A stretch of 64,000 bases of DNA. It comes from a virus. Every line of letters begins with the position of its first letter. The stretch's first letter is position 1. Below are positions 35,158 to 64,000 of this stretch, in pieces. The notes beneath the pieces were generated by a model that was not told the DNA's origin, made no database searches, and worked only from the letters and a program-made list of their open reading frames with translations. The stretch covers positions 33,241 through 97,240 of IMG/VR virus record IMGVR_UViG_3300028800_000064. One strand, 5' to 3'. Both the position numbers and the translations under genes were made by a program.

Positions 35158-35186
35158 TTGACATTTGGACTTGGGCCGGGTATATT
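35158..35186 (+). promoter_or_regulatory. strong sigma-70-like promoter for the tmRNA gene
   Basis: TTGACA (35158-35163), 17 bases, TATATT (35181-35186). This is among the best promoter matches in the window and predicts transcription from about 35193 into a non-coding, highly structured region. Confidence 0.85.
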
Positions 35187-35198
35187 GGAGGAGTTAAT

Positions 35199-35345
35199 TC
35201 GAGGGACTTGGGCGGCACAGTAGGCTTCGGGAAAAAGGATCGAAGCCATATACCACCGGGGACCACGCGAACCGCCTCTTAAACAGAGTCGAATTCACCT
35301 CGGATTGGCTGGTGGAGGCGGGGGTAAACCTATAGAGGTCCCTTG
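35199..35345 (+). ncRNA. structured 5' part of the tmRNA precursor
   Basis: Nested stems are visible: AATTCGA/TCGAATT enclosing GGCGG/CCGCC enclosing GGCTTCG/CGAAGCC. CCACC/GGTGG and GGGACC/GGTCCC could form pseudoknots with downstream bases. It may be the pseudoknot region of the acceptor piece or a separate RNA removed on maturation. Confidence 0.6.
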
Positions 35346-35499
35346 CCCTAAACTTTCGGTGGGGTCTAAGCGCCTGCTAAACGCCGAGCCGAAGAGCCTA
35401 GCATATGTAGCACAGAACTAGGCGGGACCCCAAATTACGCTCGTAGAACGCTCATGGCGACCTAACTGGACGGCGGTTCGACTCCGCCCAGGTCCACCA

Positions 35500-35589
35500 G
35501 AGCGCATTCCTGTTCCGGGTCAACGGGACCAACCCGTAAGACCATTCGGTACGGAACAAACCTGACGAGGGGGAGTGCGCTTTAATGGT
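35500..35589 (+). other. tmRNA intervening segment
   Basis: The 90 bases between the mature 3' CCA and the mature 5' end begin with AGCGCATTCC and end with GGAGTGCGCT plus a few bases, a 10-bp stem with one wobble. It brings the two ends together in the precursor and is expected to be excised. Confidence 0.75.
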
Positions 35590-35761
35590 GGGCCTGACCC
35601 GGTTTCGACAGGTGGGTTTAGCGGTGGGGCTTTTTCGAGCCGTCCTGACAACGACGTGAAACTAGATCAAACTATAACTGTCAAGCAAACGCTTGCCAAG
35701 GTGATTGAGTTCGTCGTTCCGGTTCGCTCGCGCGAACTGGCAATGGCGGCTTAGTTGCCGG
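35590..35761 (+). ncRNA. tmRNA coding piece with tag reading frame
   Basis: After the D-loop analogue and a GGCT/AGCC hairpin (PK1 region), a frame with no stop runs to TAG 35752-35754. It reads ..AKVIEFVVPVRSRELAMAA. P5 is CTGGCAA/TTGCCGG (35737-35743/35755-35761), with the stop in its loop as in known tmRNAs. The resume codon is uncertain: GTC 35680 and GCC 35695 are candidates, giving 24 or 19 residues. Confidence 0.8.
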
Positions 35762-35762
35762 G

Positions 35763-35797
35763 AGGGGCTGCCCGCAAGGTGGCCCCTTCACATTTTT
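35763..35797 (+). terminator. probable terminator of the tmRNA gene
   Basis: AGGGGC/GCCCCT (35763-35768/35782-35787), with inner GC pairs, is followed after 5 bases by TTTTT. It could alternatively be the 3' hairpin of the coding piece. Confidence 0.55.
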
Positions 35798-35886
35798 CGT
35801 GGTTCCCTGGATAATTACGACAGGGATTAAATCGGCGACCGGATGCGCACAGCAGCCAGCCACACCTTTTTTTTGGAGGAGACTTG

Positions 35887-36307: not shown

Positions 36308-36510
36308 GCGCCTATCGCGTGCATCGCTTGGAGTGGGAGCACCAAGAGCCCAGAGACTTGGAATGGGCGCTACGCACCAAACTGCGAGTGAAACTTGAGA
36401 AAGAAAAGGAACCGGTGCCAGCGGAATTGTTGGTTCAAGCATATACCGAGGCTCATCGAATCGGGGAATTTTGGAGAATGGTTTACGGTTTATCGTGGGA
36501 GGAAAAATGA
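36304..36510 (+). CDS. small hypothetical protein
   Basis: The 68-aa, strongly charged product (MSAYRVHRLEWEHQEPRDLE) is helical with many Trp and Glu. ATGA overlaps at both ends tie it to the HNH-like and KTSC genes. Confidence 0.65.
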   Translation: MSAYRVHRLEWEHQEPRDLEWALRTKLRVKLEKEKEPVPAELLVQAYTEAHRIGEFWRMVYGLSWEEK

Positions 36511-36728
36511 GTTTCGACGGATTCACACCGATCAGTTCGGACCATATCGACGGAGTTAAGTACGACTCGTTTGCACAGCGGCTCACCATCCGTTTCAAAA
36601 ACGGATACATCTACGACGTGCATGGCGTGTCGCCCAAGGAGCACGAAGACTTCCTGAACGCACCCTCGCAAGGCCAACACTTCCATAGTCAGATCAAAGG
36701 GAATTTCCACATCGAACGGATCAAATAA
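36507..36728 (+). CDS. KTSC domain protein
   Basis: The 73-aa protein is nearly all KTSC domain: SSDHIDGVKYDSFAQRLTIR, NGYIYDVHGVSPKEHEDFL, ending GNFHIERIK. The family is widespread in phages and bacteria with no fixed biochemical role, suggested to bind nucleic acid. Confidence 0.9.
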   Translation: MSFDGFTPISSDHIDGVKYDSFAQRLTIRFKNGYIYDVHGVSPKEHEDFLNAPSQGQHFHSQIKGNFHIERIK

Positions 36729-40995: not shown

Positions 40996-41171
40996 GCGAG
41001 CACCGCCTTTGCTCGTTTTTTCCAGCAAACATACCTCTGACCCCATTTCTCAATCATCGTGTCGTGGTCGTGCATTGTCCAATAGTTCCGCCACTCCTGC
41101 ATCTCCTCGCGGGTGTGCATGCCGCAGTAATCCCAGTGGGTTTGGATGCCGGAGAACTCCCAATCGTTCAT
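40992..41171 (-). CDS. small Trp/His-rich protein
   Basis: A 59-aa frame between the recombinase and the 40995 gene overlaps both by ATGA. The product (MNDWEFSGIQTHWDYCGMHT) is rich in Trp, His and Glu. The perfect coupling is the main evidence that it is a real gene. Confidence 0.65.
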   Translation of the reverse strand: MNDWEFSGIQTHWDYCGMHTREEMQEWRNYWTMHDHDTMIEKWGQRYVCWKKRAKAVLA

Positions 41172-41713
41172 GCCAGCACCAACGAATCCATGGCGTCCTG
41201 CGCCAGCATCCCGTCATTTTCTTGCAGATAGACGAAAGCCGACGAAGGCGAGCGGTGCGCCAGAAACTGACTCACCGCGCCGATACGCTTGGTCACGTCG
41301 AACACAATCATGGCCGCACTATGGCGGAAGACGTGAGAGTGTGCGTAATCACTATGAATGCCCGCTGCATCCGCGTACTTGCGAAGGTTCAGGTTAAAGT
41401 ACTGCCGGGAGAGCCCGCCGAACAGGCGCGATTGGCGTTTTGTCTTGGCCAGATCGATCAGCGGCGTCATGTCGAAGGCCGGGTCCGCATCAATGTGCAG
41501 CGAGTGGGTGATGGCGTTTCCACGCTTAGCGGCGCGAATCTTGATGACCCACTTTCCCTCGCGCTCGAAGATGTCTTCGCCGCGCACGTTCAGCACTTGC
41601 GAGATTCGCGCGCCGGTGAAGAAACCCACGAGCATGGCCAGGTGGTGCATACGGTTCGTCTCGTGCGCCGCGCGGAAGATTTTAGCGAGTTCTTGCTTGC
41701 CGAGGTATTGCAT
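41168..41713 (-). CDS. minimal tyrosine recombinase (integrase-like)
   Basis: The 181-aa protein is just the catalytic domain: R36 in TGARISQV, K63 in RAAKRG, H127-x2-R130 in HVFRHS, H153 in FLAHRS and Y162 in FVYLQE. The arm- and core-binding domains of usual integrases (about 350 aa) are missing. It could resolve phage DNA or support integration; no att site is visible nearby. TAATG coupling to the 41892 gene. Confidence 0.9.
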   Translation of the reverse strand: MQYLGKQELAKIFRAAHETNRMHHLAMLVGFFTGARISQVLNVRGEDIFEREGKWVIKIRAAKRGNAITHSLHIDADPAFDMTPLIDLAKTKRQSRLFGGLSRQYFNLNLRKYADAAGIHSDYAHSHVFRHSAAMIVFDVTKRIGAVSQFLAHRSPSSAFVYLQENDGMLAQDAMDSLVLA

Positions 41714-41892
41714 TACCGCACCACCTTTGCGCGTAGCGCGAAGAATTTCTTGACAGCTGCGTTGTAGGGTTTGGAGTACTTGTTGGCGGAGGTGAAGATC
41801 ACGAACTTGGCATCTACCGGGACTCCCTCTTCGGCGCACATGAGAGCCCAGAGGCGGGTCACTTTCGCTTGCGTCTTCTGCAGTTCGGTCAT
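41713..41892 (-). CDS. small basic protein, operon leader gene
   Basis: The 59-aa helical product (MTELQKTQAKVTRLWALMCA) is translated from ATG 41892, which follows ATGGAGGATGTGACC. First gene of a recombinase operon. It might supply a DNA-binding function to the minimal recombinase; this is speculative. Confidence 0.65.
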   Translation of the reverse strand: MTELQKTQAKVTRLWALMCAEEGVPVDAKFVIFTSANKYSKPYNAAVKKFFALRAKVVR

Positions 41893-41913
41893 GGTCACAT
41901 CCTCCATGCGAAG

Positions 41914-41977
41914 AGTATCGCACAAAGGCGGCAGGATTTGCAATAGTACGAAAGTACTGATTTTTGGCTAGTACTAG
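41914..41977 (-). promoter_or_regulatory. regulon promoter with two GTAC operators (site 4)
   Basis: On the - strand TTGCAA (41938-41943), 18 bases, GATACT (41914-41919). The palindrome AGTACTTTCGTACT (41945-41958) abuts the -35, and a second dyad CTAGTACTAG lies at 41968-41977. Confidence 0.8.
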
Positions 41978-41984
41978 GTAAAAA

Positions 41985-42251
41985 TTACCGCTTCGCATCC
42001 AGCGCGGCATCCAGCGAATAATAGCCCGGCTCGGTAGGCCCAGGTTCTAGTCCTGTCCGCAACACGAGGAAAAATGCGAAGTCGTTGAGCATGCGAGACC
42101 ATACATGGTACGGGCTAGTGGTGGCGTTCAACCCTAAGAGGTTGGCTCCGTCCAGGTTGGCTCTCTTTGATACTGCCGCTACGACCAACTCTTTTATGGA
42201 TTCAACTGTCGCTGAGAAGAGAACGGTTCCGGTTAGGCTGAGTAAGTCCAT
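41985..42251 (-). CDS. small hypothetical protein
   Basis: The 88-aa product (MDLLSLTGTVLFSATVESIK) follows an AGGAGG site. It is mildly hydrophobic at the start and otherwise unassigned. Ends just before the operator pair. Confidence 0.65.
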   Translation of the reverse strand: MDLLSLTGTVLFSATVESIKELVVAAVSKRANLDGANLLGLNATTSPYHVWSRMLNDFAFFLVLRTGLEPGPTEPGYYSLDAALDAKR

Positions 42252-62646: not shown

Positions 62647-63245
62647 TGTCAACTGAAGCCGAACTCGAAGACCTCTTCCGCGATCAGGTAGCAGCGGCGG
62701 AGGAATCTGCCAAAAACACTCTGTATCATCTAGCAAGCATATCTGATAGCCGCCGACAGATTTTGGAATGGCTAGATGAGAACAAATGGAAGTCTGACAG
62801 TGGTGCTTTAACCCGCCACACGCAGCTCGCCGTCGCGCTGGCGCTGGAAGAGGCGGCGAAGGTTTGTTGCGCGAACAAGGAAAGCGAGTGTGAAGACTAT
62901 GCCCAGAGGGCGTATGAAGTAGCCGAATCCGAAATTCGCGCACTCCGCCCGGACGCCACGAAGCTACTGGCCGAGCACGATTACAAAATTGCAGAAGAGG
63001 CGGCGAAGTCGGCTTGCGAAGGTAGATACGAAAGCGAAACATTTTCCTCAGCGGAAGCGTTGGCCGAGGACCGAGAGCGGGTGCGACTGGAAGAGGCGAA
63101 TGTCTGGCTGCCGTACTACCGTTCCGCCTTTGTCTGGCACCAAATTGATGACGATGCTAAGGCTGACGAGTTACGAGATTGGGGAGTCAAACGTATCGCT
63201 GAACTCGACTCCGCCCTCGCCCAGCGGGACGGAGGGAAGGAGTGA
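62646..63245 (+). CDS. hypothetical helical protein
   Basis: The 199-aa acidic protein (MSTEAELEDLFRDQVAAAEE) is mainly helical with four cysteines near the centre. No family recognised. GAAGGAG precedes the start. Confidence 0.65.
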   Translation: MSTEAELEDLFRDQVAAAEESAKNTLYHLASISDSRRQILEWLDENKWKSDSGALTRHTQLAVALALEEAAKVCCANKESECEDYAQRAYEVAESEIRALRPDATKLLAEHDYKIAEEAAKSACEGRYESETFSSAEALAEDRERVRLEEANVWLPYYRSAFVWHQIDDDAKADELRDWGVKRIAELDSALAQRDGGKE

Positions 63246-63285
63246 TCCGCGTGCATTGCGACTGGCCGGGGTGCGGGGAGGGACG

Positions 63286-63690
63286 ATGAAAGCGTTAACG
63301 CTGACTGAGCCGTGGGCCACGTTGATGGCTTACCAAGCCAAGAGAATCGAAACGCGGTCGTGGCGATTACCGAACAATATCATTGGTCAAGAAGTGGCGA
63401 TCCATGCGGCCAAGGGCTTCCCGAAGTGGGCCAAGGAAACGTGCGACGAAGAACCGTTCACGATTCTGAATACACTCAACGTCTCTCTGAATCCGGGACA
63501 CGTTCTCTGTGTGGTGAAATTCATCGGATGCAGAATGACTGAGGATGTCAGCAAGCAAATAACTCCGCAAGAGTTTGCGTTTGGCGATTATGGAGAAGGT
63601 CGCTGGGCATGGTTCTCGGAATTCGTCAGAAAGCTCGATAAACCGATTCCGGCAGTAGGGCATCTCGGATTCTGGGACTGGACCGAATAG
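63286..63690 (+). CDS. ASCH domain protein
   Basis: The 134-aa protein matches the phage ASCH pattern: LTLTEPWATLMAYQAKRIET, SWRLPNNIIGQEVAIHAAKG, and FGDYGEGRWAWFSE. ASCH domains resemble PUA folds and are thought to bind RNA or modified bases. GGGAGGGACG precedes ATG 63286. Confidence 0.88.
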   Translation: MKALTLTEPWATLMAYQAKRIETRSWRLPNNIIGQEVAIHAAKGFPKWAKETCDEEPFTILNTLNVSLNPGHVLCVVKFIGCRMTEDVSKQITPQEFAFGDYGEGRWAWFSEFVRKLDKPIPAVGHLGFWDWTE

Positions 63691-63750
63691 GCTCTGCCCC
63701 GCGCACGCCCAGGCGCTCGGGCTGAGGGACGGAGCGAAAGGCGGCAGGGA

Positions 63751-63939
63751 ATGACCGAAGCTGAGTACCAGAAGCAGGCCAACGACCGCGCGCAAGCTTT
63801 GCGCCGATACGAGCGGCTGGCTTTGTTGATAACGAGCTGCATAAAGGCCAACCCTATCTTTTACAAGAAATCACAGCCAGATAAATGGTGTGACGAACTC
63901 CTGGAGCTGTCCCACCAGTACGGATTCGGGAAGGAGTGA
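63751..63939 (+). CDS. small hypothetical protein
   Basis: The 62-aa product (MTEAEYQKQANDRAQALRRY) is helical and charged. GGCAGGGA precedes the start. Confidence 0.6.
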   Translation: MTEAEYQKQANDRAQALRRYERLALLITSCIKANPIFYKKSQPDKWCDELLELSHQYGFGKE

Positions 63940-63942
63940 CCA

Positions 63943-64000
63943 ATGAAGACTGCGATCTATATCGAAGATGGCCGTACTCAGTTTGTGTTGACGCCGGAAA
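63943..64000 (+). CDS. start of a gene running off the window (partial)
   Basis: ATG 63943 follows GAAGGAGTGACC. The first 19 codons (MKTAIYIEDGRTQFVLTPE) stay open to the window edge. No function can be assigned. Confidence 0.6.
   Translation, partial: MKTAIYIEDGRTQFVLTPE

Follow-up and report, generated by a model that had tools for sequence, protein, structure and literature searches.

A permuted tmRNA gene encoding a long, conserved tag in phages likely to infect Acidobacteriota

Introduction

What kind of RNA is encoded around position 35500 of a 64,000-nucleotide stretch of phage DNA, and what might a phage gain from carrying it? The stretch, hereafter the window, comprises positions 33241-97240 of a 97,240-base viral record, and the source phage is soil-type. 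A first-pass annotation made from the letters of the sequence had read the locus as a permuted tmRNA gene, in which the tRNA-like 3' half is encoded ahead of the 5' half, and had taken no permuted tmRNA to be known from a phage. The novelty implied there does not hold, since such genes have been published (PMC9004378) and are abundant in viral contigs. Two-piece tmRNAs of the methylophage Melnitz and its relatives were published in 2022, and ARAGORN classed 53 of 133 unique phage tmRNAs as two-piece (PMC9004378). Of two pattern scans of viral contigs, one returned at least 120 stretches with the permuted-gene pattern, and 203 permuted genes, the window's own included, were called by ARAGORN among the matches listed. 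A two-piece tmRNA in a phage is already known and not unprecedented; what distinguishes the window gene is a tag of 24-27 residues with a selected core, the lack of a confident subfamily, and the one-piece tmRNA of the likely hosts. For the question of what tmRNAs do for the phages that carry them, the lineage described here offers a clear case.

Identity and architecture of the gene

A covariance model, ARAGORN, comparative pairing and a conserved placement in six related phages all support reading the locus as a phage tmRNA gene of the permuted, two-piece type. The window gives a full-length match to Rfam RF04321 (tmRNA_permuted) at 35439-35754 (81.1 bits, gathering score 47 bits; E 5.8e-14 for the whole window), and ARAGORN independently places a permuted tmRNA (tmRNA*) at 35407-35845, its sole tRNA or tmRNA call in the whole window. 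Both bear out the permuted tmRNA that had been proposed for 35193-35797. As RF04321 describes, the tRNA-like 3' half is encoded upstream of the 5' half, with pairing in the acceptor stem and P2. A one-piece tmRNA is absent from the window, where RF00023 reaches just 34 bits (cut-off 47). The comparison with permuted Rfam models that the first-pass annotation had suggested succeeded with RF04321 and fell short with beta_tmRNA (RF01850), which scores 70.7 bits against a cut-off of 84. The beta model is the top older subfamily model in all seven copies, with 29-54 bits in the six relatives; because it is best throughout yet always below 84, the gene is filed as a permuted tmRNA that cannot confidently be assigned to the alpha, beta or cyano type. 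A DicF match on the minus strand (35210-35271) lies under its own cut-off and was taken as chance.

All parts of the gene lie on the plus strand. A sigma-70-type promoter, TTGACA-17-TATATT (35158-35186), matches 11 of 12 consensus bases, and in all seven copies the distance from a TTGACA to the conserved GGTGGAGG downstream is 50-55 or 142-153 nt. The promoter fits the start at 35193 proposed earlier and sets the predicted beginning of a transcribed leader (35193-35310), which varies in length and sequence in the alignment of relatives and presumably forms a long hairpin in the precursor; the fold z-score of 35193-35438 is just -1.7. The acceptor piece (35311-35499, 5' boundary predicted) begins with GGTGGAGG, followed by a variable pseudoknot-like region, the 3' strands of P2 (35439-35443, 35451-35455 and 35462-35468), the T arm GGCGG-UUCGACU-CCGCC (35472-35488), the acceptor 3' strand CAGGUCC (35489-35495) and an encoded ACCA (35496-35499). 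GGTGGAGG (35311-35318) opens the acceptor piece in every copy, as GGTGGAAG in one of them; its GGTGGA complements UCCACC at the acceptor end, which might matter in precursor folding.

An intervening sequence (35500-35589) that is expected to be removed forms a 90-nt hairpin of -38.9 kcal/mol and folds far better than its shuffles (z -3.9 for 35501-35589); its counterparts in the six relatives measure 57-71 nt when the acceptor piece is taken to include the third base of CCA. The coding piece (35590-35797) starts with GGGCCUGACCCGGUUUCGAC and contains the acceptor 5' strand GGGCCUG with the G3-U wobble (35590-35596), the D-loop motif GGUUUCGAC, the 5' strands of P2 (35609-35615, 35624-35628 and 35636-35640), a CGUC/GACG stem (35641-35656) and the tag reading frame called by ARAGORN, GTC...TAG (35680-35754), which encodes the 24-residue tag VKQTLAKVIEFVVPVRSRELAMAA. 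The order first proposed, an ACCA-bearing half and then the 5' half, is therefore the order found, with ACCA ending at 35499 and GGGCCUG starting at 35590. Two hairpins are predicted in the fold of 35719-35759 (z -3.2), one within the tag frame (35719-35740) and a small P5-like one over the stop codon (35745-35759), in keeping with the claim that P5 holds the stop of the tag. A predicted intrinsic terminator-like hairpin of 12 pairs with a U run (35761-35797) agrees with the proposed end at 35797. The first-pass description of the gene was borne out at each point examined.

Conservation in related phages

The terminase of the record led to 45 related viral contigs. Six of these carry a permuted tmRNA above the RF04321 cut-off (57.1-76.5 bits); the other terminase relatives are mostly short fragments, and since RF04321 finds no match in at least one of the long ones (G022, 99.7 kb), the gene is widespread in the lineage without being present in every member. 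A broader coding-piece motif retrieved the same lineage only, and a stricter pattern nothing. Weaker RF04321 and RF00023 matches in further relatives were mostly tRNA-Ala and other tRNA genes. G022 has a promoter-like TTGACT box among its tRNA genes, followed by about 250 nt to a U run (L286, about 1640-1900); this stretch matches no Rfam family and is possibly another small RNA. The surroundings of the tmRNA gene are conserved as well: a gene for a KTSC-domain protein (36471-36728, plus strand; PF13619, 61.3 bits), which is not part of the RNA, lies downstream of it in the window phage and in all six relatives, with 49-71% identity in the six.

For the seven copies, the acceptor and coding pieces were joined and aligned, and pairs were counted in one structure consisting of the acceptor stem, the T stem, the three P2 segments and the short coding-piece stem. 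Standard pairs occupy 97.3% of 222 cells, 18 of the 32 pairs have changed on both sides, and the covariation score is 0.61. When partners are slid by 1-3 columns, pairing drops to 31-44% and covariation to 0.06-0.13; the structure derives in part from aligning the window to the Rfam model and is favoured over the slid versions for that reason, which does not explain the count of two-sided changes. The acceptor stem is paired in 100% of cells, with compensatory changes, and the P2-type helices, which the first-pass annotation had seen pairing across the permuted order, in 97-100%. Its G3-U wobble stands at the third acceptor pair, as G3-U70, the identity element of alanyl-tRNA synthetase, in all seven copies. 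Chance is excluded because seven diverged copies show compensatory changes, and the comparison points to a genuine, selected phage gene, since six relatives carry it, its halves covary and the acceptor G-U is invariant. Two relatives have a T loop of 6 bases, and in several the third base of CCA is unencoded (ACCC), like the consensus of the betaproteobacterial model.

The phage lineage and its likely hosts

The record encodes a terminase, a portal, a major head protein, GroEL, RecA and a DNA polymerase, the GroEL-like and RecA genes lying at L221 4051-5646 and L222 10563-11579. No SmpB gene was found in the 97-kb record, and no close DNA relatives among annotated phages. Because the ends of the contig (L221 1-1028 and window 63117-64000) are co-linear copies that are partly identical (173 bp at 98%, 107 bp at 100%), the genome is probably close to complete, with an overlap that varies. 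The phage RecA clusters with 17 Acidobacteriota sequences (support 99/97) on a long branch, in a panel drawn from a pattern search and not from a full sample; among 19 genomes compared, those of Acidobacteriota give the phage GroEL its top scores; and the terminase and integrase find remote matches (24-28% identity) in the acidobacterial phage Tunturi_3. Taken together, the RecA grouping, the GroEL scores and these matches make Acidobacteriota the likely hosts. A terminase search of sequenced genome contigs revealed no prophage of the lineage, and ARAGORN calls no tmRNA in the cultured Tunturi_3 (97.6 kb).

The tmRNAs of Acidobacteriota are of the other form. A one-piece tmRNA scores above cut-off in 86 of 99 genomes, and the tags of five that were inspected have 9 residues (e.g., ANQPLALAA and ADHQLAYAA). 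RF04321 exceeds its cut-off in nine of 297 Acidobacteriota genomes (loci L379-L387), and none of the 297 has a true permuted tmRNA by this search: a one-piece tmRNA lies at or beside all nine matches. At eight, where ARAGORN places a tRNA-Asp directly upstream, the model had fused the 3' half of the tRNA with the 5' half of the adjacent one-piece tmRNA; the ninth is probably a misreading of two neighbouring one-piece tmRNAs. Tandem one-piece matches (155 and 110 bits) occur at G198:C13 201907-202671 of an Acidobacteriota genome. Such false positives are a practical warning, as annotation pipelines could report spurious permuted tmRNAs.

A long tag under selection

The tags of the six relatives (AKTKLAQVVMFASRTNVASARRLAMAA, AKRKLAQVIAFPGVFAVASARPQALAA, VKPTKLAKVLMFARPAAFVPQALAA, AMPKKLAQVVMFAQRPAAFVPQALAA, AKNKLAQVVMFAKRAVVVPARQYAMAA and AKTKMAKVLAFPAMRTVAPARQFALAA) are, like that of the window, unusually long: all seven have 24-27 residues, the usual length being 10 (PMC11915505). 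Each closes with the small hydrophobic residues AMAA or ALAA, and besides this ending a core is conserved. Over 13 alignable conserved codons of the seven copies, mean pS is 0.74 and mean pN 0.19, and differences at codon positions 1, 2 and 3 number 70, 32 and 162. Because synonymous differences far exceed non-synonymous ones and fall mostly at third positions, the tag appears to be under purifying selection at the level of the peptide itself, which implies that it is translated. A peptide search for relatives of the tag in annotated phages gave no match.

Proposed function

We consider it very probable that the gene specifies a functional phage tmRNA of the permuted, two-piece form. A single transcript would start near 35193 and end near 35797; host RNase P and 3' tRNA-processing enzymes would excise 35500-35589, and the acceptor and coding pieces would stay joined through the acceptor stem and P2 helices. 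The G3-U pair should allow charging by the host alanyl-tRNA synthetase, and host SmpB would bring the RNA to ribosomes that stall on mRNAs that are broken or lack a stop codon. The ribosome would then move to the tag frame, append the phage's own tag and stop at UAG, and the tagged protein would presumably be degraded. The RNA would depend on the SmpB of the host because the phage record encodes none. By this mechanism the phage would supply hosts that have a one-piece tmRNA with a second rescue RNA that differs in structure and in tag, and could profit during infection by keeping ribosomes available and by putting its own tag in place of the short one of the host.

The tag might, more tentatively, have an activity of its own beyond that of a degradation signal, such as an altered protease choice or binding to a membrane or a phage factor. 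This would be compatible with the rescue mechanism and would add to it. The common length of the seven tags and their conserved core speak for it, as does the recurrence of long tags in other phages: among 202 other viral permuted tmRNAs in the matches listed, the median tag has 10 residues and 21 have 20 or more, as uncurated ARAGORN frames. The ending, however, is still the usual degron-like ALAA or AMAA, and RNA structure may partly keep the core, though the changes are concentrated at the third positions of codons.

Distinctly improbable, in our judgement, is a decoy or inhibitor whose tRNA-like domain sequesters host SmpB and blocks trans-translation by the host, a role put forward for the RNA of mycobacteriophage DS6A. 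The activity of tmRNA is inhibited by molecules of the DS6A type, which may act by titrating SmpB (PMC4131195; PMC11915505), and the absence of a phage SmpB would suit this role. A decoy has no need of a tag, yet seven phages keep the frame of 24-27 residues intact, with selection acting on the peptide, and the G-U pair for alanylation is invariant; because the tag is selected, a decoy is less likely than rescue. Leftovers of a host ssrA attachment site, a tRNA beside a one-piece tmRNA or a chimeric assembly are barely credible, for although an integrase-family gene lies at 41168-42010 and the permuted model is deceived in some bacterial genomes by a tRNA-Asp with a one-piece tmRNA, the layout recurs on six other contigs with compensatory changes, promoter and terminator are complete, and the pairing of a tRNA with a neighbouring one-piece tmRNA is ruled out at the window, where neither is called and the copies covary.

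Returning to the rescue RNA, a wider reading may be offered as speculation: phages of Acidobacteriota would deploy a two-piece tmRNA in hosts with the one-piece form only, and the long tag would change the fate or activity of rescued proteins. If true, the phage takes over the rescue and tagging pathway of the cell through a long conserved tag. The rescue products of host and phage would be separable in an infected cell because both the form of the RNA (one-piece and two-piece) and the tag (9 and 24-27 residues) should differ.

Relation to known tmRNAs

Melnitz and the marine phages resemble the window phage in that a tailed phage carries a complete permuted tmRNA of a type not native to the host lineage, and the Melnitz RNA has been proposed to keep translation going or to tag host proteins in infection (PMC9004378). 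The Melnitz tmRNA is of the alphaproteobacterial type, linked to a glutamine riboswitch and marine, whereas the window gene comes closest, though weakly, to the beta model, is flanked by no Rfam riboswitch and occurs in a lineage with links to Acidobacteriota. With the betaproteobacterial two-piece tmRNA (RF01850) the lineage shares the best-scoring older model and, in several copies, the ACCC of the consensus; its copies reach 29-71 bits, under 84, and differ in the tag and in the 5' region of the acceptor piece. The one-piece tmRNA of Acidobacteriota (RF00023) has the same presumed function and cofactors, but is unpermuted with 9-residue tags, against the permuted window gene with its 24-residue tag. 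The tmRNA genes of Bxz1-group phages are one-piece. Mycobacteriophages (Bxz1 group, DS6A) are listed among ssrA-bearing phages (PMC4131195) and like the window phage carry a tmRNA or part of one; the DS6A RNA is a tRNA-like domain alone, whereas the window gene has a tag.

Tags that are both long and conserved may be a recurring feature of phage tmRNAs. Long tags that resemble one another, ...VKVSMGRGFRF... and ANADTFDFSAMSFTGNTV..., mark two more groups of permuted tmRNAs from viruses, at loci L133, L140, L149, L153, L167, L169, L177, L183, L184 and L203, and further at L126, L158, L195, L201, L204 and L206.
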